A DNA stretch of 64,000 nt, from NCBI RefSeq assembly GCF_900112585.1, contig NZ_FOLY01000005.1, positions 186,001 through 250,000 of the forward strand, read 5' to 3'. Both the position numbers and the translations under genes were made by a program. The notes beneath the pieces are model-generated. The model was not told the origin of the DNA and searched no databases. It saw only the letters and a list, made by a program, of their open reading frames with translations. This stretch comes from Kushneria avicenniae. Its GTDB lineage: Bacteria; Pseudomonadota; Gammaproteobacteria; Pseudomonadales; Halomonadaceae. Shown here piece after piece: positions 5,595 through 15,794 of the stretch. Numbering within the stretch: position 1 is the stretch's first letter; each line of letters starts with the position of its first letter.

Positions 5595-5608
5595 TCAGGA
5601 AACAGGGC
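5585..5608 (-). terminator. Rho-independent terminator overlapping the end of the tetR gene
   Basis: GCCCTGT (5589-5595) pairs with ACAGGGC (5602-5608) around a 6-nt loop. Read on the minus strand the stem is followed by TTTT. It includes the stop codon of the TetR gene (5595-5597). Confidence 0.75.
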
Positions 5609-6242
5609 CACGCTGCCAGATCACGATGCCTTCGATCAGGGTATTGACGACCATCTCACTGTCTCGGGCCAGCTCGAAGAGCGTCTGCTTCAATAGCCAG
5701 TCGGTAGCAGTGCCCTTGATGCAGGAGAGCAGCAGAGAGGCGGCCATATCTGCATCGAGCTCGCCTCTCAGGGTGATTTCGCCACAGCTCAGGCCACGCT
5801 CGAGAATATGACTGATGATGTCGCGACACTCACGCATGTGCAGGTCGAGTTTCTCGTTGACCCAGGCAAACTCCCCGATGAACTCGTTGCGCGAGTTGGT
5901 CAGCAACAGAATGCGTTGAAGCTGCTCATCACGTGACAGGGATTGCAGATCCTGAATCAGGGTCAGGCGCATGATGGACACCGGCGCCTGGGCACCCAGC
6001 TCGCACTGGGCCAGATGGTTGGCAAGGCGCTCCGGCATCTGGCGCTTGCGTTCGAGCAGGGCCGAAAGGATGCCGCTTTTCCCTTCGGGGAAATGCCAGT
6101 TCAGTGCCCCGCGAGTCACGCCGGCACGGGTGGCAATGTCATTGTGTGTTGTGCGGCTGAGTCCCTTTTCGATAAAGAGGTGTTCGGCGGCATTGATCAA
6201 AGCCTGGCGCGTCAGCTCTGCTTCTTCCTTGGTCTTTCTCAT
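5595..6242 (-). CDS. TetR-family transcriptional regulator, AcrR/TtgR-like
   Basis: A 215-residue repressor-type protein. The N-terminal HTH (residues about 10-56) reads RKTKEEAELTRQ, then AAEHLFIEKGLSRTTHNDIA, then AGVTRGALNWHF, closely resembling the AcrR/TtgR/MexR-type DNA-binding domain. The rest is the all-helical ligand-binding and dimerisation domain. AcrR relatives repress multidrug efflux operons and release DNA on binding hydrophobic compounds. No efflux operon is adjacent. The gene is instead divergent from the molybdenum hydroxylase operon at 6725, with an AcrR-like palindrome at 6335-6352. Control of itself and possibly of that operon is an inference. Confidence 0.88.
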   Translation of the reverse strand: MRKTKEEAELTRQALINAAEHLFIEKGLSRTTHNDIATRAGVTRGALNWHFPEGKSGILSALLERKRQMPERLANHLAQCELGAQAPVSIMRLTLIQDLQSLSRDEQLQRILLLTNSRNEFIGEFAWVNEKLDLHMRECRDIISHILERGLSCGEITLRGELDADMAASLLLSCIKGTATDWLLKQTLFELARDSEMVVNTLIEGIVIWQRGPVS

Positions 6243-6352: not shown

Positions 6353-6642
6353 ATTTGCAGTGTGTGATCATGAATAGATCATTGGTCTTTACCACGGATT
6401 TCAGCGTTTGAGCACGATGGTCCGGCCGGGTGGAGGTCTGCCCGGCAGTGGCCGGCTTGATGGTCTGAAATTCGTTACCTACCTTATTAACTCCTGACCG
6501 CATCCATAAGGCCCGTGACAACGCATCATGGCGCCATCCGCCGCCCTCCGTGACGGGCGACACGCAATACGAATCACCGATCCGATAGCCATAGCGCATG
6601 ATCCGGTGCCCGACACGTCGGGTATCGCGGCCTTCGGACGAT

Positions 6643-6699
6643 GCAGTGACCGTACTGCAGACAACAAGCAGTGACCGTACAAACAAGTAGTGATCGTAC
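6643..6699. repeat. Three direct repeats (GCAGTGACCGTAC-type) upstream of the molybdenum hydroxylase operon
   Basis: GCAGTGACCGTAC occurs at 6643-6655 and 6668-6680, and a variant GTAGTGATCGTAC at 6687-6699. The last two are exactly 19 bp apart. The first also forms an inverted repeat, GCAGT-N6-ACTGC. The array ends 25 bp before the ATG at 6725, which suits binding of an activator or repressor on successive helical faces. Confidence 0.55.
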
Positions 6700-6724
6700 A
6701 AGACGACTGATGAGGATCTGACCT

Positions 6725-7318
6725 ATGGCATCTGTTAACCGTCATTCGACGGGCGTGGGGTTTTGTACCCCCGGCGCCCAGGCAGAAATCGCCGAACGCC
6801 CCAGAGCCGCTTCCGGCAAAACGTCCGATACCCGCCGTATCACTCTGACCGTCAATGGGCAGCAGCACGCACTGCAGGTCGCGCCCAATGCCGTACTGCT
6901 GGATGTGCTGCGTGATGAGCTGAATCTTTTCGGCACCAAGAAGGGCTGTGACCACGGCCAGTGCGGCGCCTGCACCGTTCACGTCAACGGTCGCAGCGTC
7001 AACAGCTGCCTGATGCTGGCCTGCATGCAGGAAGGTGCCGAGATCGTCACCATCGAAGGACTGGCCGAAAGCGCCGGCTTCGAACAGGGTCACCATCCGG
7101 TACAGGAAGCCTTTCTCGAGCACGATGCCTACCAGTGCGGCTACTGCACGGCAGGGCAGATGATGACCGCCTCGGCCATCATCAGCGATGACAGCATCGA
7201 CGGCGACGAAGCCTCGCTGCGCGAGGCCATGAGCGGCAACATCTGCCGCTGCGGCGCCTACAAGAACATTCTCGAGGCGGTACAGCAGGCACGCGGCAAG
7301 ATGCGGGGAGGCCAGTAA
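6725..7318 (+). CDS. Molybdenum hydroxylase [2Fe-2S] subunit, copy 1 (PaoA-like, no Tat leader)
   Basis: A 197-residue small subunit of a three-subunit xanthine-dehydrogenase-family enzyme. The plant-ferredoxin-type cluster ligands are C75, C80, C83 and C95 (GCDHGQCGACT then SC). The second, alpha-helical cluster is bound by C138, C141, C174 and C176 (CGYC and CRC). It passes electrons from the molybdenum centre to the FAD subunit. Residues 1-38 lack the twin-arginine leader seen in E. coli PaoA and in the second copy at 10867, and an in-frame stop at 6719-6721 rules out a longer start. This enzyme is therefore predicted to stay in the cytoplasm. It is the first gene of a three-gene operon. 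Confidence 0.92.
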   Translation: MASVNRHSTGVGFCTPGAQAEIAERPRAASGKTSDTRRITLTVNGQQHALQVAPNAVLLDVLRDELNLFGTKKGCDHGQCGACTVHVNGRSVNSCLMLACMQEGAEIVTIEGLAESAGFEQGHHPVQEAFLEHDAYQCGYCTAGQMMTASAIISDDSIDGDEASLREAMSGNICRCGAYKNILEAVQQARGKMRGGQ

Positions 7319-7319
7319 C

Positions 7320-8309
7320 ATGCGCACGTTTGAACTTGAAAGTGTCGAGGCCATCGATCAGGCCGTTCGCCATCGCAGCGTTCATGACGGTCAGGCCTTT
7401 ATCGCCGGGGGCACCACGTTGCTGGACCTGGTCAAACTCGATGTGATGCAGCCCGAAAAGGTGGTCGATGTCACCCGACTGCCGCTCAAGCGTATCGAGC
7501 TGCTTGATGACGGGCGTCTCAAGGTAGGCGCGCTGGTCTCCAATACCGAGCTGGCCCGACACGACATCGTGATGCGTGACTACCCGGTGCTCAGCGAGGC
7601 GCTGCTCTCCGGGGCCTCTACCGGTCTGCGCAACATGGCCACCACCGGGGGCAACGTCATGCAGCGCACGCGCTGCCCCTATTTCCGCGATCCCGATATG
7701 CCCTGCAACAAGCGCGAGCCCGGATCGGGCTGCTCGGCCATTGACGGCATCAACCGTAACCACGCCGTGCTGGGCACCAGCGATCAGTGCATCGCCACGC
7801 ACCCCTCCGACATGTGTGTCGGCATGGTCGCCGCCGGCGCTACCCTGGTGCTGGAAGGCCCCGAGGGCCAGCGTGAAGTGGCTTTCGAGGACTATCACCT
7901 GCTGCCGGGGAACACGCCCGAGCGCGAGCACGACCTGAAGCCGGGCGAGCTGATCACCCATGTGATTCTCGACGCGCCGCGCGGCGGCGGTCAGCACTAC
8001 CTCAAACTGCGCGACCGCGCCTCCTATGAATTTGCGCTCGCCTCCTGTGCCGCCATCGTTACCCTCGATGGCGACAGCGTCAGTGACGTGCGCCTGGCAC
8101 TTGGTGGTGTCGCGACCAGACCCTGGCGCGCCACGGCTGCAGAAGAGGTCCTGAAGGGGCAGCCGGCCACGCAGGAGAATTTCGAGCGCGCTGCCGAGGC
8201 CGCCTTTACGGATGCTGTGGCCTACAGCCACAACGGCTACAAGATCACGCTGGGCAAGCAGGCGATTGCGCGTGCGCTCAGGGATGCCACCGCCGCCGCT
8301 CGCGTCTGA
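7320..8309 (+). CDS. Molybdenum hydroxylase FAD-binding subunit, copy 1 (PaoB-like)
   Basis: A 329-residue medium subunit starting one base after the stop of the [2Fe-2S] subunit. FAD-binding segments are visible at GGTTLLDL (30-37) and ATTGGNVMQR (107-116), with the CO-dehydrogenase flavoprotein C-terminal domain after about residue 225. Between them lies an insertion with five cysteines (C119, C129, C138, C157, C166; RCPYF, PCNKREPGSGC, QCIAT, MCV). In E. coli PaoB this insertion binds an extra [4Fe-4S] cluster and marks the aldehyde oxidoreductase branch rather than classical xanthine dehydrogenases. Its presence makes PaoABC-type function the best reading. Confidence 0.92.
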   Translation: MRTFELESVEAIDQAVRHRSVHDGQAFIAGGTTLLDLVKLDVMQPEKVVDVTRLPLKRIELLDDGRLKVGALVSNTELARHDIVMRDYPVLSEALLSGASTGLRNMATTGGNVMQRTRCPYFRDPDMPCNKREPGSGCSAIDGINRNHAVLGTSDQCIATHPSDMCVGMVAAGATLVLEGPEGQREVAFEDYHLLPGNTPEREHDLKPGELITHVILDAPRGGGQHYLKLRDRASYEFALASCAAIVTLDGDSVSDVRLALGGVATRPWRATAAEEVLKGQPATQENFERAAEAAFTDAVAYSHNGYKITLGKQAIARALRDATAAARV

Positions 8310-8324
8310 TCACGGAGAGATCAC

Positions 8325-10556
8325 ATGACCACCGATACCGGAAAGACCCGCGAACACAATTTAAGCGCCGAGAAGCCGCGCATTGACGGCACGCTCAAGC
8401 TGACCGGTGGCGCCGACTACGCCGCCGACCGTAACCTGCCCAACCAGACCTGGGGGTATCCGGTCACCAGTACGATTACCAGCGGTAAGCTGGTGTCGCT
8501 GGAACTCGACGAGGCGCTGGCGATGCCGGGCGTGCTGGATATTTTCCATCACGACAATTTCGACCGGCTCAGCCGTTCACCCAATAGCTTCGCTGAAGAA
8601 AACCTGACCAGCGAACCGCGCCTGCCGTTCGAGGACAACGAGATCCACTATCAGGGCCAGTACATTGCCCTGGTGGTGGCCGACACCCTGAACCACGCCC
8701 GCGCGGCGGCCAGAAAAGTCAGGGCCAACTACGAGCGCAGCGATGATTTTCTGACCGATATCAGGACGCTGGATCGCGGCGAAGGCGACCTGCCCGGCGA
8801 AGAACAGTCAGGCGATGCCTCCTCGCTGGGGGATGCCGACTCGGCGCTCGAATCGGCCAGCGTCAGGCTCGATCAGCGCTACACGATCGCCCAGGAAAAC
8901 CACAGCGTCATGGAGATGCATGCCTCGGTGGCGCAGTGGGAAAACGACATGCTGACCATCTACGAGTCCTCTCAGGGAGTGGTCTTCCAGCGCAACGCGC
9001 TGGCCAAAATCTTCGGCATTCCGCCCGAGAAGGTCACGGTCATTTCGCATTTCATCGGCTCGGGCTTTGGCAGCAAGCTTTTCATGTGGCCGCACGCCAT
9101 CATGACCGCCGTCGCGGCGCGTCGTCTGGGCCGCCCGGTCAAGACGGTGCTGTCGCGACAGCAGGAGTATCTGGCCACCGGCTATCGCCCGACCTCGCTG
9201 CAGCGCGTGCGTCTGGGCGCCGACGACAGCGGCCGACTGCTCTCCATCCATCACGACGGCTGCAACGAAAGCTCGCCGGCCGGCAAGCACGATGACACCG
9301 TCAGCGGCGCCACGCCCAAGATGTATGACTGTGGCAATGTCGCTGTCACCAATCGGCTGGTCACGGTCAACAAGTGCCCGCCGTGCCCGATGCGCGCTCC
9401 CGGAGAGTCCTCCGGTAACTTTGCACTGGAAACCGCGCTTGATGAGCTTGCGGTCCAGCTCGACATGGACCCGCTGGAGCTCAGAAAGAAAAATTTTGCC
9501 GACAAGGACCCGGCTTCCGGCCTGCCTTGGTCGAGCAATCATCTCAGAGAGTGCTGGGACAATGCGGCCAGCCGCTTTGGCTGGGACAAGCGCAATGCCA
9601 CGCCCGGTGCGATGAAAGACGGTGACGAGATCATCGGCTATGGCATGGCGACCCAGAGCTGGGAAGCGATGCGCCAGCACTGCAGTGCACGCTTCGGATT
9701 CCGCGCCGACGGTTCGCTGCTGGTCGCCTGTGGTACTCAGGACATCGGCACCGGCACCTATACCATCGTGGCACAGACGGCCAGCAAGCTGACCGGTATC
9801 CCCATCGAGATGATCGATGTGCGCCTCGGGGATTCCTCGCTGCCCTCCGGACCGCTGTCGGGGGGCTCGTTTGCCACGTCCACCGTGTTGCCGGCGGTTT
9901 CGGCGGCCTTTGACGAAGCGGTGTCGCAGCTCAAGACGCTGGCCACGGCCGAAGGCGGCGCGTTTGAAAATGCTGACACGGATGCCATCGAGTTCCAGGA
10001 CGGCAGGCTCGTGCACGGCGGTCAAAGCGTTGACGTCACGCAGCTGCTCAAGGACAACCAGCTGGGGCTGGTGGATGCCGTGGGGTCTGCTCAGCCCGGC
10101 GACGAGCAGAGTCAGTACAGCTTCCGCTCCTTCGGCGCCGTGTTCGTGGAAATTCGCTGGGATCCGGGCATCTCGCGTCTGCGCGTGGCGCGCGTGGTCT
10201 CGACCATCGATATCGGCCGCGCCATCAATCCGATGACGGCACGCAACCAGGTCGAGGGCGGCATTGTCATGGGCATGGGGATGGGCCTGTTCGAGCAGGC
10301 CGAGTTCGATCACAGCGGCTATCCCTACAATAACAACCTGGCGGACTACATCCTGCCGGTGAATGCCGACATGCCGGAGGTGGACGTCGAGCTGCTCGAC
10401 TATCCCGACTATCACCACAATGCCTTCGGCGCGCGCGGCGTCGGCGAAATCGGGCTGACCGGTGTGGCAGCCGCCATTTCCAACGCCGTTTATAACGCCA
10501 CCGGCAAGCGCATTCGCGATATGCCGATCTCGATCGAGAAAATGCTGGCGTCCTGA
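8325..10556 (+). CDS. Molybdenum hydroxylase molybdopterin-binding subunit, copy 1 (PaoC-like)
   Basis: A 743-residue large subunit, a typical length for PaoC/YagR. It has the aldehyde oxidase/xanthine dehydrogenase a/b hammerhead domain (residues about 15-140) followed by the molybdopterin domains. Cofactor-contact motifs include GSGFGSK, MRAPGESSG and GTQDIGTGTYT. The C-terminal GARGVGEIG holds the catalytic Glu near residue 707 that activates the molybdenum-bound water. Likely reaction: oxidation of an aldehyde or N-heterocycle to the hydroxylated product. An SD-like GGAGA precedes the ATG, 15 bases after the preceding stop. No XdhC/PaoD maturation chaperone lies in the operon. A terminator follows at 10580-10612. 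Confidence 0.92.
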   Translation: MTTDTGKTREHNLSAEKPRIDGTLKLTGGADYAADRNLPNQTWGYPVTSTITSGKLVSLELDEALAMPGVLDIFHHDNFDRLSRSPNSFAEENLTSEPRLPFEDNEIHYQGQYIALVVADTLNHARAAARKVRANYERSDDFLTDIRTLDRGEGDLPGEEQSGDASSLGDADSALESASVRLDQRYTIAQENHSVMEMHASVAQWENDMLTIYESSQGVVFQRNALAKIFGIPPEKVTVISHFIGSGFGSKLFMWPHAIMTAVAARRLGRPVKTVLSRQQEYLATGYRPTSLQRVRLGADDSGRLLSIHHDGCNESSPAGKHDDTVSGATPKMYDCGNVAVTNRLVTVNKCPPCPMRAPGESSGNFALETALDELAVQLDMDPLELRKKNFADKDPASGLPWSSNHLRECWDNAASRFGWDKRNATPGAMKDGDEIIGYGMATQSWEAMRQHCSARFGFRADGSLLVACGTQDIGTGTYTIVAQTASKLTGIPIEMIDVRLGDSSLPSGPLSGGSFATSTVLPAVSAAFDEAVSQLKTLATAEGGAFENADTDAIEFQDGRLVHGGQSVDVTQLLKDNQLGLVDAVGSAQPGDEQSQYSFRSFGAVFVEIRWDPGISRLRVARVVSTIDIGRAINPMTARNQVEGGIVMGMGMGLFEQAEFDHSGYPYNNNLADYILPVNADMPEVDVELLDYPDYHHNAFGARGVGEIGLTGVAAAISNAVYNATGKRIRDMPISIEKMLAS

Positions 10557-10579
10557 TCCCGAGCCAGATTTTTGTGTCA

Positions 10580-10612
10580 AAAGGCCGACCCCCGCAAGGG
10601 GCCGGCTTTTTG
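10580..10612 (+). terminator. Terminator after the first molybdenum hydroxylase operon
   Basis: An imperfect GC-rich hairpin (GGCCGACCCC with GGGGCCGGC) flanked by AAAA on the left and TTTTT on the right, starting 24 nt after the stop codon. It separates the two enzyme operons. Confidence 0.8.
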
Positions 10613-10702
10613 GGATCGATTTTTCCTGCTCCGAATAAATTGTCTGAACAATGACTGAAAGGTGCTTACTGGCAATCTCTTCACGCTCGGTCCAGGCTTG
10701 AA

Positions 10703-10720
10703 TCGTTTGCCGGCAAACGA
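10703..10720. promoter_or_regulatory. Perfect 18-bp palindrome, operator candidate for the second operon
   Basis: TCGTTTGCCGGCAAACGA is perfectly self-complementary and lies 146 bp upstream of the start at 10867. The central CCGG dyad and the flanking TTTG/CAAA half-sites resemble LacI/GalR-type operators. No LacI-family gene is in the window. Confidence 0.5.
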
Positions 10721-10776
10721 GTTGACCGGTCATCACTGATATTCCCAAGATTTCAGAGCGCCTCGAGGCGCCATCG

Positions 10777-10796
10777 CTGGCAGCTGGCACTGCCAG
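10777..10796. promoter_or_regulatory. Inverted repeat CTGGCAG-N6-CTGCCAG near the second operon start
   Basis: Perfect 7-bp arms with a 6-bp spacer, 70 bp before the ATG at 10867. Its place near the expected promoter suggests a regulator site. The regulator is unknown. Confidence 0.4.
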
Positions 10797-10866
10797 GACT
10801 CATATCGACCGTGACGAGACAGGGCGCGATACAACACCAATGCCCTGATGCAATGAGGAGTAACTC

Positions 10867-11544
10867 ATGAGTGATCACCACAAGGGTGATGGATCGGGCG
10901 TCGAGACCTTCGATGCCCGCTCGCCGTCAAGGCGACGTTTTCTCAAATCCATGGGGGCCTCGGGGCTGGCAGCGGCCACGGCACCGGCCTGGGCGCAGAT
11001 CGCTCAGGCGGGACAGTCGCAGGCCGAGCCCGTTGAACCGCGTGATGATGGCGCGCCCGCCGAAGGCGAGCAGCAGATCCGGCTCACCGTCAACGGTGTC
11101 GAGCACACCCTGAACGTCACCCCTAACGCCGTACTGCTCGATGTGCTGCGTGATCGTCTTGAATTGACCGGCACCAAAAAGGGCTGTGACCAGGGCCAGT
11201 GCGGCGCCTGCACGCTGCTGGTCAACGATACGGCGATCAACTCCTGCCTGTCGCTGGCCGTGTCACATGACGGTGACGAGATCACCACCATCGAAGGGCT
11301 TTCCAACGGGGACGATCTGCATCCGGTGCAGGCGGCCTTCTGGGAACACGACGCCTACCAGTGCGGCTACTGCACTTCGGGGCAGATCATGAGCGCCGTC
11401 GCCATTCTCAACGATGACAATATCGGCAGCGATGATGCCTCGGTACGCGAGGCGATGAGCGGCAACATCTGTCGCTGTGGCGCCTACAAGAACATTCTCG
11501 CGGCCGTGCAGGATGCCCGCGGCAGGATGAAGGGAGCGAGCTGA
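10867..11544 (+). CDS. paoA: Molybdenum hydroxylase [2Fe-2S] subunit, copy 2, Tat-exported (PaoA-like)
   Basis: A 225-residue iron-sulfur subunit. Residues 20-45 form a twin-arginine leader (SPSRRRFLKSMG, an Ala-rich core, then an AWA-type cleavage site), as in periplasmic E. coli PaoA. Two [2Fe-2S] sites are complete: C107, C112, C115, C127 and C166, C169, C202, C204. The mature part is strikingly similar to copy 1 (shared GTKKGCD-GQCGACT, DAYQCGYCT, EAMSGNICRCGAYKNIL), so the operons are paralogous. The folded three-subunit complex is expected to be carried to the periplasm by this leader. The stop codon overlaps the next start (TGATG). Confidence 0.93.
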   Translation: MSDHHKGDGSGVETFDARSPSRRRFLKSMGASGLAAATAPAWAQIAQAGQSQAEPVEPRDDGAPAEGEQQIRLTVNGVEHTLNVTPNAVLLDVLRDRLELTGTKKGCDQGQCGACTLLVNDTAINSCLSLAVSHDGDEITTIEGLSNGDDLHPVQAAFWEHDAYQCGYCTSGQIMSAVAILNDDNIGSDDASVREAMSGNICRCGAYKNILAAVQDARGRMKGAS

Positions 11545-12527
11545 TGCACAATTTTGACTATGCGCGGGCCGACAGTACGCGCCAGGCGGTCTCTTCCCAC
11601 GGTCCCGATAAACAGGCGGCCTATCTGGCCGGCGGCACCACGCTACTGGATCTGGTCAAGATCGACATCATGCGCCCGGAGCAGGTGGTCGACATCAACC
11701 GGCTCGATCTCAAAAGGATCGAAACCCTGAATGACGGCCGTACCCGGATCGGGGCACTGGTGACCAACACGGCACTCGCTCGCGATGAGCGCATCGCAAG
11801 TGACTATGCCGTGCTCAGTGAGGCGCTGCTGTCAGGGGCCACTACGCAGCTGCGCAACAAGGCGACCACTGCCGGCAATGTGATGCAGCGCGTACGCTGC
11901 CCGTACTTCCGCGACGGGGTGTCAAACTGCAACAAGCGCGAACCGGGCTCGGGCTGTGCCGCCATCGAGGGCCATAACCGCAGCGTGCACGCCGTGCTCG
12001 GCACCAGCGAGCACTGCATCGCCACGCACCCCTCCGACATGTGCGTGGCGATGGCCGCCATTGGCGCCACGATCACCGTCGAGGGCCCGGAAGGGCAGCG
12101 CGAGATCGACTTTCTCGACTTTCACCTGCTGCCGGGGGATACCCCCGAGCGCGAGCACGCTCTGAAACCGGGGGAGCTGATCACTCACGTCACGCTGGAT
12201 GCCCCGCTCGACAACAGCCGCTCTCACTATCTCAAGCTGCGCGATCGCGCCTCCTATCAGTTCGCGCTGGCCTCGAGCGCCGTGATCGTCACCCTTGAGG
12301 GCGACACCATTACGGATGCCCGTGTGGCGCTGGGCGGGGTGGGCACCAGACCCTGGCGTGCCCATGAGGCAGAGGCCGCCCTCAAGGGGCAGAAAGCGAC
12401 CGAGGCGACCTTTCAAAAGGCCGCCGGCATTGCGTTCAAGAGCGCCACGCCCTATGCCCATAACGCCTTCAAGATTCCGCTCGGCCAGCAGGCCATCGTG
12501 CGCAATCTCACCACCCTGACCGCCTGA
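11544..12527 (+). CDS. paoB: Molybdenum hydroxylase FAD-binding subunit, copy 2 (PaoB-like)
   Basis: A 327-residue flavoprotein subunit whose ATG overlaps the preceding TGA by one base. It has FAD motifs at GGTTLLDL (30-37) and ATTAGNVMQR (107-116), where copy 1 has a Gly for the second Ala. The cysteine-rich insertion for a [4Fe-4S] cluster is intact (C119, C129, C138, C158, C167). It accepts electrons from the [2Fe-2S] subunit and passes them to an external acceptor. For PaoABC this is oxygen or an unidentified periplasmic acceptor. It has no leader of its own and should be co-exported. Confidence 0.92.
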   Translation: MHNFDYARADSTRQAVSSHGPDKQAAYLAGGTTLLDLVKIDIMRPEQVVDINRLDLKRIETLNDGRTRIGALVTNTALARDERIASDYAVLSEALLSGATTQLRNKATTAGNVMQRVRCPYFRDGVSNCNKREPGSGCAAIEGHNRSVHAVLGTSEHCIATHPSDMCVAMAAIGATITVEGPEGQREIDFLDFHLLPGDTPEREHALKPGELITHVTLDAPLDNSRSHYLKLRDRASYQFALASSAVIVTLEGDTITDARVALGGVGTRPWRAHEAEAALKGQKATEATFQKAAGIAFKSATPYAHNAFKIPLGQQAIVRNLTTLTA

Positions 12528-12552
12528 AGGCGCGACCAGACAGGAGAACGTC

Positions 12553-14784
12553 ATGAGTGACAGCATCATTGGCGCCGGTGCTATTGGTTCCGGACCAAAG
12601 CGCATTGATGGCCAGCGCAAGGTCACGGGTGCAGCGCCCTATGCCGCCGATCATCATCCCGATAACGTGGCTTATGGCTACGGGGTCTTCAGCACCATCG
12701 CCAGCGGCACCGTTGCCGGGCTCGACCTGGACGCCGCGCGTCAGTCCCCCGGGGTGATCGACATCTTTCATCACGAGCATTTCCCCGAGTTGCACCGCTC
12801 GCCATCCTCCATGGCCCAGGGCAACAAGGTCGAGGAGACCCGCCTGCCGTTCGAGGACAACAAGGTGTATTACGAAGGCCAGTTCGTGGCGCTGGTCGTG
12901 GCCGACACCTTTGAAAACGCCCGTGCCGCGGCGCGTAAGGTCGGTGTGAATTACAAAAGTGACCAAGCGATTGCCAATCTGGATCAGGGCGTGACGGCGC
13001 ACGGCACCCAGAAGGGGCAGGGCAATCATGAACGCGGTGATGCGGCGGGTAACTTTGACGGCGCCGCCCACAGCATCGATGTGACCTATACCACGCCGGT
13101 CGAAACCCACAACCCGATGGAGATGCATGCCTCGGTCGCGAGCTGGGAGGGCGATCGCCTGACCATTTTCGAGTCCTCCCAGGGGGTAGTGCAGCAGCAG
13201 GGGGCGCTTGCAAAGATCTTTGGCATCCCGCCGGAACACATTCGGGTAGAGTCGCCGTTTATCGGCTCGGGCTTTGGTGCCAAGCTCTGGATGTGGCCCC
13301 ATGCGGTCGCAGCGTCCGCCGCGGCGCGGGAAATCGGCCGTCCGGTGCAGCTGGTCGTACCGCGCCAGCAGATGTTCACGACCACCGGGCATCGTCCTGA
13401 AACGTGCCAGCGCATGAGGCTTGCCACGGATGAGAACGGTAAGCTGGTGTCGCTGCGTCATGAGTCGATCAACACGACCTCGTTTACCGATCAGTATGTT
13501 GAAACCTGCGGCAGCGTGACCAAAAGCCTCTACTCGTGTCCGAATCTGACGGTCAGTCATGAGACCACGCAGGTCAATCGTGGCACGCCGACCTCGATGC
13601 GGGCACCCGGTGCGGCGCCCGGGCTCTTTGCACTGGAATCGGCCATTGACGAGATGGCCCTTGAAGCCGGCGTTGACCCGCTCGAATTTCGCATGAACAA
13701 CTATGCGGAACGCGACGAGAGTCTGGATCTCGACTTCTCCAGTAACCACATCCGCGAGGCGACCGAGCGGGCTGCAGAGAAGTTTGGCTGGCATGATCGC
13801 AATCCGGACGTCGGCTCGATGCGCGATGGCCATGAAATCATTGGTTACGGCATGGCGGCCTGTAACTGGGAGGCCCTCAAGCGGGAATGTGAGGCGCGGG
13901 TGTCGCTGCGTGCCGACGGCACGGCGTATGTCACCTGTGCCACCCAGGACATCGGTACCGGCACCTATACCATCATTGCCCAGACCGTGAGTGATCTGAC
14001 CGGGTTGCCGATCGAGAAGATTACCGTGCGACTGGGAGATACCAGCTACCCGAAAGGCCCCATCTCGGGCGGTTCCTGGACCACGGCCACCACGCTGCCG
14101 GCGGTGGCCGCTGCCACGCGCAAGGCCATCGAGGAACTCAAGGGGTATGCCACGAGCGGGAAGGGTGACTTTGCCGACGCGGCAAGCGACAGTCTCACGT
14201 TCGAGAACGGGCAGCTCACTCATGATGGGCAGAGCGTGGACTATGTCGACGTGCTCAAGGGGCAGAAGCTGGCCAGTGCCGATGGCCATGCTCATACCCA
14301 GGGGGCTGACAGCCAATACTCCTATCGCTCCTTCGGGGCGCACTTTGTTGAAGTGCGCTGGGACCCGGGCATTTCGAATCTGCGCGTCTCAAGAGTGGTC
14401 AGCGCCATCGATGTCGGTCGCGTGATCAATTCGATGACGGCACGCAACCAGGTCGAGGGGGCCATCGTCATGGGGCTGGGCATGGCTCACTTCGAGGCCA
14501 CCGAGTATGACGCGCGCAATGGCCGACCGGTGAACAACAACTATGCCGAGTATGTGGTGCCGGTGCACGCCGACCAGCCGCCGGAGGTCGATGTAATCCT
14601 GCTCGACTATCCTGATCTGGAATTCAACGAATTCGGTGCCCGCGGCATCGGCGAAATCGGGATTACCGGGATGGCGGCGGCGGTGGCCAATGCGGTCTAC
14701 CACGCGACCGGCAAACGCATTCGGGATCTACCGATCTTCAAGGAGAAGCTGATGGAGAACATTCCGGCCGTCCAGTCGGCCTGA
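12553..14784 (+). CDS. paoC: Molybdenum hydroxylase molybdopterin-binding subunit, copy 2 (PaoC-like)
   Basis: A 743-residue catalytic subunit, the same length as copy 1. The hammerhead domain is at about residues 10-135, followed by the molybdopterin domains (GSGFGAKLWMWPH, MRAPGAAPG, ATQDIGTGTYT). The catalytic Glu is in GARGIGEIG near residue 702. Copy 1 reads APGESSG where this copy reads APGAAPG, so the two probably differ in substrate preference. The ATG follows AGGAGAACGTC. By family the cofactor is molybdopterin cytosine dinucleotide. A dedicated chaperone (PaoD/XdhC) and MocA are not in this window. The deacetylase-fold gene lies 113 bp downstream. Confidence 0.92.
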   Translation: MSDSIIGAGAIGSGPKRIDGQRKVTGAAPYAADHHPDNVAYGYGVFSTIASGTVAGLDLDAARQSPGVIDIFHHEHFPELHRSPSSMAQGNKVEETRLPFEDNKVYYEGQFVALVVADTFENARAAARKVGVNYKSDQAIANLDQGVTAHGTQKGQGNHERGDAAGNFDGAAHSIDVTYTTPVETHNPMEMHASVASWEGDRLTIFESSQGVVQQQGALAKIFGIPPEHIRVESPFIGSGFGAKLWMWPHAVAASAAAREIGRPVQLVVPRQQMFTTTGHRPETCQRMRLATDENGKLVSLRHESINTTSFTDQYVETCGSVTKSLYSCPNLTVSHETTQVNRGTPTSMRAPGAAPGLFALESAIDEMALEAGVDPLEFRMNNYAERDESLDLDFSSNHIREATERAAEKFGWHDRNPDVGSMRDGHEIIGYGMAACNWEALKRECEARVSLRADGTAYVTCATQDIGTGTYTIIAQTVSDLTGLPIEKITVRLGDTSYPKGPISGGSWTTATTLPAVAAATRKAIEELKGYATSGKGDFADAASDSLTFENGQLTHDGQSVDYVDVLKGQKLASADGHAHTQGADSQYSYRSFGAHFVEVRWDPGISNLRVSRVVSAIDVGRVINSMTARNQVEGAIVMGLGMAHFEATEYDARNGRPVNNNYAEYVVPVHADQPPEVDVILLDYPDLEFNEFGARGIGEIGITGMAAAVANAVYHATGKRIRDLPIFKEKLMENIPAVQSA

Positions 14785-14897: not shown

Positions 14898-15794
14898 ATG
14901 ACGCTGAAACATCTGCGCCACCACGAGCGTTTCGACTACCGAGCGATCACTGATCGCGATGATTTCCGCTGGCCTGGCGATACCCGTCTGGCGGTCTATG
15001 TGGGCATCAATCTGGAGCATTTCGCCTTTGGCGAGGGGCGCGGCCCCGGCATTGCACCGCCGGCGCCGGAAGGGGAACCTGACGTGCTCAACTATGCCTG
15101 GCGCGAGTACGGCAACCGCGTGGGCGCCTGGCGTTTTCTGGAGATGCTGGAAGCGCTATCACTACCGGCCGGGGTGATCGCCAATACCTCGATTCTAGAT
15201 CACTGCCCCGAACTGCTGGAGGCTTTCGTGGCCCGAGGGGACGAGCTGATCGGTCATGGCCACACCAACGCCGAGCGTCAGGGGCAGATGCCGCCGAGCG
15301 AGGAGGCCGCACTGATTGCCCGCTGTCGTGAGCGTCTGGCGAGCCACTTTGGCACCGCGCCCGAAGGCTGGCTTTCGCCGTGGATTTCGGAAAGCGATCG
15401 CACCCCGGACCTGCTGCAGGAGGCAGGCTTTGGCTACACGCTCAACTGGTCACATGATGACCGCCCCACCGCCATGCGCACGCGCCGCGGTCAGCTTCTG
15501 TCGATTCCCTATCCGCAGGAGTTGAACGACATTCCGACCATCTCGACCCATCGGGTCAGCATGAACGAGTTTGCCACCATGATGCGCGATCAGTTCTTCG
15601 AGCTGCTCGAACAGTCCCGCCACCAGCCGCTGGTCATGGGTATCGCCCTGCACCCCTGGCTGACCGGCCAGCCCTTCCGGCTGCGGCTGCTGCGCAGGGT
15701 ACTCACCGATCTGGCCGGCCATCGCGAGGCCGAAGGTGTCTGGTGGACCACGCCCGGCCAGATTGCGCGTCATGTGTCCAGACAAGCCGTCTGA
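14898..15794 (+). CDS. Polysaccharide-deacetylase-fold amidohydrolase (PuuE/NodB-like), cytoplasmic
   Basis: A 298-residue protein of the NodB/carbohydrate esterase 4 fold. Recognisable segments are the N-terminal strand LAVYVGINLEHF, the metal-site region ELIGHGHTN (about residues 114-122), and the LSPWISES and HPWLTGQPFR blocks. It has no signal peptide or membrane anchor, so cell-wall deacetylation is unlikely. Cytoplasmic members such as PuuE act on small cyclic amides (allantoin and related ureides). Its position after two molybdenum hydroxylase operons, a family often used in purine or N-heterocycle breakdown, fits opening of an oxidised heterocycle. That link is inference from context. 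Confidence 0.78.
   Translation: MTLKHLRHHERFDYRAITDRDDFRWPGDTRLAVYVGINLEHFAFGEGRGPGIAPPAPEGEPDVLNYAWREYGNRVGAWRFLEMLEALSLPAGVIANTSILDHCPELLEAFVARGDELIGHGHTNAERQGQMPPSEEAALIARCRERLASHFGTAPEGWLSPWISESDRTPDLLQEAGFGYTLNWSHDDRPTAMRTRRGQLLSIPYPQELNDIPTISTHRVSMNEFATMMRDQFFELLEQSRHQPLVMGIALHPWLTGQPFRLRLLRRVLTDLAGHREAEGVWWTTPGQIARHVSRQAV

Follow-up and report, generated by a model that had tools for sequence, protein, structure and literature searches.

Two adjacent operons in Kushneria avicenniae (family Halomonadaceae) appear to encode related molybdenum hydroxylases that would work on opposite sides of the membrane. They lie in a 64,000-nucleotide stretch of DNA, hereafter the window, which spans contig positions 186001-250000 in a 3.6-Mb genome; operon 1 occupies window positions 6725-10556 and operon 2 positions 10867-14784, and each is a complete A-B-C set. 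Our preferred reading, to which we give a probability of about 0.72, is that each operon specifies a complete molybdo-iron-sulfur flavoenzyme of PaoABC type, probably an aldehyde oxidoreductase serving detoxification, and that the two form an old and maintained compartment-split pair. Enzyme 2 would assemble in the cytoplasm, leave through the twin-arginine translocation (Tat) system by means of the leader on its A2 subunit, as Escherichia coli PaoABC does, and work like that enzyme; enzyme 1, with no recognizable leader on any subunit, would stay in the cytoplasm and perform the same kind of chemistry inside. An unlinked XdhC-family chaperone and a MocA-like cytidylyltransferase would probably supply the cofactor to both enzymes, and the pair would go back to an ancient divergence of clade I, which lacks leaders, from clade II, most of whose enzymes would be exported.

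Two operons and one Tat leader

The initial annotation of this DNA had proposed two adjacent paralogous A-B-C operons of PaoABC type, and gene calls, Pfam domains and the best NCBIfam models bear this out. On the forward strand, operon 1 comprises A1 (6725-7318, 197 residues), a [2Fe-2S] subunit without an export signal; B1 (7320-8309, 329 residues), a flavin adenine dinucleotide (FAD) subunit with a four-cysteine [4Fe-4S] insertion; and C1 (8325-10556, 743 residues), a molybdopterin subunit of clade I. Operon 2, on the same strand, comprises A2 (10867-11544, 225 residues), a [2Fe-2S] subunit bearing the Tat leader SPSRRRFLK; B2 (11544-12527, 327 residues), an FAD subunit with the same four-cysteine insertion; and C2 (12553-14784, 743 residues), a molybdopterin subunit of clade II. 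The catalytic glutamate is conserved in both C subunits, and all six proteins match the expected Pfam domains above cut-off. The best NCBIfam models are those of PaoA for A1 and A2 (NF008514; 197 and 227 bits, cut-off 322), PaoC for C1 and C2 (NF041671; 608 and 634 bits, cut-off 1180) and glyceraldehyde dehydrogenase beta for B1 and B2, under its cut-off; judged by these profiles, both operons are clearly of PaoABC kind and neither is a strict PaoABC equivalog. Identity between the operons is 55% for C, about 60% for A and 65% for B. The equal length of the two large subunits, previously offered as evidence, is a coincidence, and we dropped it because lengths differ in other Kushneria: C1 is called at 744-748 residues in six named strains (798 in L006, where the start is called further upstream), and the calls for C2 range over 737-746.

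Alignment also upheld the earlier observation that the cluster ligands are conserved and that both FAD subunits carry the extra [4Fe-4S] insertion. Eight of the nine PaoA cysteines are kept in both operons, Cys167 alone being absent, and PaoB cysteines 119, 129, 138 and 157 are all kept in both, including B1 aligned with 5g5g_B. Across the operons read for the two clades, the A cysteines that bind the two [2Fe-2S] clusters are present in 55/55 (clade I) and 47/47 (clade II), and the B cysteines of the [4Fe-4S] cluster in 55/56 (one row is a gap) and 47/47. A glutamate at the position of PaoC E692, which we take to be the catalytic residue, is found in 57/57 and 45/47 (two gaps).

A comparison of A1, A2, B1, C1 and C2 with solved structures identified PDB entry 5Y6Q as the closest solved relative of C1, C2, A1 and A2, together with E. 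coli PaoABC (5G5G/5G5H). Entry 5Y6Q, which we take to be the Methylobacillus aldehyde oxidase, has a deposited A chain of 162 residues with the domain starting at about residue 5 and no leader in the entry; it lies outside both clades on a long branch, where its placement is unsure. Both operons resemble E. coli PaoABC (YagTSR) in subunit order, in the cysteines for two [2Fe-2S] clusters and an extra [4Fe-4S] cluster, in the FAD domain and in Glu692, and differ from it in that C identity is 38-39%, the NCBIfam cut-offs are missed and the operons have no paoD, the candidate counterpart being an xdhC-mocA pair elsewhere in the genome. The Tat leader of the E. coli A subunit has an equivalent in operon 2 and none in operon 1. 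E. coli PaoABC is described as exported as a trimer through the PaoA leader, by a hitchhiker route (PMC4273604); PMC3958847 describes it as preferring aromatic aldehydes and not using NAD+, with no electron acceptor identified at that time.

A Tat leader on A2 only, with a stop excluding a longer A1, had been claimed for this DNA, and both parts were confirmed. The A2 N-terminus reads SPSRRRFLK followed by a hydrophobic stretch, and scores 20.5 bits against TIGR01409 (cut-off 16.7, reached) and 20.3 bits against PF10518 (cut-off 22.7, not reached); A1 has no match to either model at E up to 0.001, and a TGA at 6719-6721 is in frame with A1, one codon separating it from the ATG. TatC is present in the genome. 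We then read 131 operons, 129 of them with an A subunit and the E. coli reference included, and scored leaders with a pattern of our own, a sequence prediction that took in up to 95 residues of open frame in front of the A domain. In clade I (57 operons, all from Halomonadaceae and spanning 12 genera; L052 and L068 have no A subunit in the stretch read) no leader precedes any of the 55 A subunits. In clade II, leaving aside the matches in G018 and G021-G024, all 47 operons have an A subunit and 46 have a leader, comprising 38/38 in Halomonadaceae and 8/9 outside the family, the exception being Methylophaga. By this rule, leader state follows clade. Among more distant operons 11 of 27 carry a leader and 16 do not, so PaoABC-like enzymes without a leader are common; the same rule missed L095, in whose frame RRALL precedes a hydrophobic segment, and counted L115, which contains RRRK, as lacking a leader. 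Because the leaderless Methylophaga enzyme (L016), 65% identical to C2, sits inside the exported clade, leader state has changed more than once; this enzyme comes from a single operon in a 22-kb locus, in contrast with the pair in Kushneria.

Leaderless PaoABC-like enzymes are already known from the 5Y6Q entry, and what appears to be new is the maintained inside/outside pair. Searches of an open-access library brought up no account of a pair like this, which is weak evidence of novelty.

Clades, linkage and constraint

The two operons had been explained as sister enzymes that arose by duplication. In a careful tree of 40 C proteins, C1 and C2 do fall in sister clades, with supports of 100/99 for clade I, 99/96 for clade II and 98/94 for the two joined, and the same split appears in a quick tree of 98 rows (5Y6Q and 97 of the 131 operons). 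The rows of the quick tree were chosen by hand, which removed 27 loci: most were near duplicates, L028 and L053 had an incomplete C2, and L052 had no A. Besides Halomonadaceae, clade II contains Pseudomonas, Paraburkholderia, Cupriavidus, Methylophaga and family f163, and C2 is 62% identical to the Pseudomonas proteins and 65% to those of Methylophaga, versus 55% to C1. The approximately unbiased (AU) test rejects both a single clade of Kushneria C1 and C2 (p 0.000326) and a single clade of the 28 Halomonadaceae C copies (p 0.0000919). Because these groupings are rejected and clade II holds other genera, the split is old and predates Kushneria. The part of the earlier explanation that stands is therefore that of paralogues in sister clades with differing predicted compartments; duplication within the lineage does not stand.

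The minimum number of leader-state changes is seven on the 98-row tree and three on the 40-row tree, counts that cannot distinguish gain from loss. Of the five outgroup rows in the 40-row tree, four lack a leader by our rule; if anything, this would favour gain of the leader in clade II. The tail of A1 (RHSTGVGFCTPG) hints at leader loss, as it resembles the leader start of a clade II protein from another genus (RSSTGVGIYEPG) better than 300/300 shuffles; group means also exceed shuffles, values as high being reached in 9/300 for Ia and 1/300 for Ib. The starts were chosen by hand, the idea was drawn from the same sequences, the rows are related and 20 of 25 single tails have p > 0.05, that of Kushneria L006 among them, so that a relic leader in A1 is only a hint.

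Two further arrangements were seen. A third, distant PaoC-like operon (36-38%), with no Tat leader by our rule, is present in two Kushneria (L103/G006 and L104/G008). L089 (G552), a leaderless long-branch member grouping with clade II, has on its own strand, some 28 kb away, a clade II operon with a Tat leader, and is perhaps part of an independent inside/outside pair in another family.

A family search of 275 genomes found a match in 104 at E 1e-100, with at most three candidates scored per genome. Both C proteins are present in 10/10 Kushneria, and both kinds in 32 genomes altogether: these Kushneria, three Larsenimonas (g10), G169, G148, G151 and 16 of group g20. The two operons share one contig and one strand in all 32. 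They run head to tail in the order I-II in 14 genomes (Kushneria, Larsenimonas and G169) and in the order II-I in 18, where the distance from first C to second C is 2.7 to 29 kb; they may have stayed neighbours since the split or have come together later. The gap between C1 and the called start of A2 is 50 bp in Larsenimonas L010 and 3 bp in L011, giving a near-continuous six-gene cluster. In group g20 (L120, L121, L122, L139) a conserved gene of about 572 residues and a small gene separate the clade II operon from that of clade I, and the small gene of L122 matches NF002454, the CrcB model, at 99.8 bits (cut-off 312).

Median omega in Kushneria is 0.154 for C1, 0.118 for C2, 0.165 for A1 and 0.090 for A2 (36 pairs each, which are not independent, from 9/10 Kushneria, G003 being left out), values that place A and C of both clades under purifying selection. 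Where one locus contains both operons (25 loci, 22 of them for B), clade I proteins have more cysteines than their clade II partners in 20/25 for A (5 equal), 20/22 for B (2 equal) and 22/25 for C (2 equal); fewer cysteines in all three clade II subunits would be expected of a location outside the cytoplasm. Thirteen C columns show fixed differences between the clades, one of them a gap and 12 of them residue changes such as those at PaoC positions 236 (H/P), 247 (F/W), 354 (E/A) and 356 (S/P). Two of the 13 fall in the MRAPG loop, and some of the positions presumably line the active site. With the inside/outside pair kept in many relatives, the compartment split looks old and maintained, and not accidental.

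Control regions, cofactor supply and neighbouring genes

The suggestion that the operons have different operators gained ground, as the DNA before A2 has a hairpin and a palindrome and that before A1 another conserved block. The G+C-rich hairpin, followed by T residues, lies after C1 (10583-10606, forward strand) and was recognized by eye in 7/7 aligned Kushneria; folded for two Kushneria, it reaches -23.1 kcal/mol in the window and is a probable terminator. The perfect 18-bp palindrome TCGTTTGCCGGCAAACGA (10703-10720, strandless), found by a relaxed pattern in 9/10 Kushneria (L030 lacking it), is a candidate operator, and the block TTCGTTACCTACCTTAT, about 240 bp before A1 (6471-6487, forward strand) and invariant in five aligned Kushneria, is a candidate control element. 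With strict criteria, no promoter or terminator was called in front of A1 or A2, and the hairpin too went uncalled. Separate control of the two operons is likely in Kushneria; the C1-A2 spacing in Larsenimonas suggests co-transcription there. A divergent TetR-type regulator (5595-6242, reverse strand; nearest NCBIfam models MtrR and AcrR, below cut-off) precedes the pair, as it does in three other Kushneria examined, and we infer that it is tied to operon 1. Directly before A1, at 6638-6700, are three copies of a 19-nt repeat of the AACAAGCAGTGACCGTACA type; this stretch is largely absent from four other aligned Kushneria, which keep a single similar motif.

For E. coli PaoABC, the XdhC-like chaperone YagQ (PaoD) is reported to be required for activity (PMC10609526, PMC2997495). 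A genome profile search found no paoD/XdhC_C gene in either operon or elsewhere in the window. Two XdhC_C matches exceed the cut-off, at C8:648364 and, next to a xanthine dehydrogenase, at C12:320600; a third, below cut-off, is at C8:408961. The xdhC gene at C8:648364 overlaps a MocA-like gene by one base, and the nearest NCBIfam models for the two, both below cut-off, are an XdhC-type aldehyde oxidoreductase maturation factor and MocA. Such an overlap is consistent with a molybdopterin cytosine dinucleotide (MCD) cofactor, and this one unlinked xdhC-mocA pair may mature both enzymes. A chaperone shared in this way would be unable to depend on the Tat leader. On pAO1, a single xdhC with mocA lies near several molybdoenzymes, and PMC2997495 terms a shared role there speculative.

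Of the 25 clade I regions examined, 13 have EmrA-like and EmrB-like genes no more than about 5 kb from the C gene (Larsenimonas 3/3, groups other than Larsenimonas and Kushneria 10/18); regions of the same genus are not independent and some stop at contig ends. None was found in the four clade II-only regions examined. Family assignment was confirmed for a single representative, L124, and the scan also took in two TetR-like neighbours, those of L010 and L121. These neighbours point to detoxification and export, but EmrAB pairs are common in general. Periplasmic aldehyde oxidation for detoxification is likewise described for Pseudomonas PaoEFG, which unlike the present enzymes consists of a 2Fe-2S protein, a molybdopterin subunit and a cytochrome c, and is not an A-B-C set with FAD, according to the description in PMC12064950.

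Downstream of C2, an allantoinase/polysaccharide-deacetylase-like gene at 14898-15794 scores 104.7 bits against the PuuE model (cut-off 424.6). A similar gene follows the pair in L004 and L008 and was not found in L006.

Competing explanations and significance

Several of our results weigh against an old, maintained compartment-split pair. Export of enzyme 2, retention of enzyme 1 and the use of aldehydes as substrates are all predictions, and the equivalog cut-offs for PaoA and PaoC are reached by neither operon. Leader-bearing and leaderless forms mix among the distant relatives. Trees of A alone (39 rows) and B alone (34 rows) support clade II and fail to recover clade I, without rejecting it (p 0.167 and 0.433), and so give no clear sign of A exchange between the clades. 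The pair is not obligatory, because many Halomonadaceae show one clade only: clade II in all 10 genomes of group g5, and clade I in seven g8 genomes, those matching at above 50% identity. In Kushneria G003 (L028, a single-contig genome) C2 is divided between two reading frames and C1 occupies one, and the C2 match is partial in G189 of group g20. No EmrAB-like pair was found in the four Kushneria regions examined. Acidity failed as an independent marker of compartment, as clade II proteins are the more acidic in only 10/25 loci for A, 6/22 for B and 1/25 for C and are less acidic on average, the opposite of what would be expected of the exported enzyme in a halophile; since the two clades amount to one contrast, neither the cysteine nor the acidity comparison is a strong test.

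Among rival explanations, the most serious is that the compartments do differ and the enzymes have no joint function, each having its own substrate and signal and the linkage being simply inherited. Separate control regions in Kushneria, the frequency of single-kind genomes and the fixed C differences, including those in the MRAPG loop, all speak for it; linkage that survives two gene orders and five genera, and the near-continuous cluster in Larsenimonas, speak the other way, and we regard this account as a real possibility, somewhat short of even odds. Mixed complexes, in which B1C1 or A1B1C1 would be exported with A2 so that two catalytic cores share one export signal, are improbable in our judgement. 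The identities between A1 and A2 and between B1 and B2 would permit them, as would the short C1-A2 distances in L010 and L011, and hitchhiking of leaderless subunits is described as the normal route in E. coli (PMC4273604); against this, 55 of 57 clade I operons have an A subunit of their own, among them operons from genomes that gave no match to clade II. The shared gene order, head-to-tail arrangement and 55% identity of C1 and C2 might instead evoke a recent tandem copy within Kushneria followed by leader loss or gain, a very improbable history given both AU results and the greater similarity of C2 to Pseudomonas and Methylophaga proteins than to C1; for C, duplication at the level of the genus was rejected by that test. 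N-termini are the commonest place for misread gene starts, yet with an in-frame TGA one codon upstream of A1, and no leader pattern before any of the 55 clade I A domains in the 12 genera, the chance that the missing A1 leader reflects a wrong start or a sequence error is negligible.

The compartment-split pair could also be part of something larger: a two-sided aldehyde detoxification module of cytoplasmic and periplasmic oxidases, with a shared cofactor-loading pair and, in several genera, an EmrAB-type exporter that would handle the inside product or toxin. The enzyme 1 leader would then have been reduced to a relic tail, its first residues kept and its twin-arginine and hydrophobic parts lost. 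We consider this fuller version rather unlikely.

If the two enzymes do form an old, maintained pair divided between compartments, they would provide a natural experiment on exporting versus retaining a folded, cofactor-loaded enzyme, the difference being a leader. The same kind of subunits, probably with the same cofactor and chaperone, would then operate on both sides of the membrane, and the system could reveal whether an XdhC-type chaperone can act on an enzyme that has no Tat leader. The pair would also bear on which electron acceptor serves each side, and on why aldehydes should be oxidized on both sides of the membrane.

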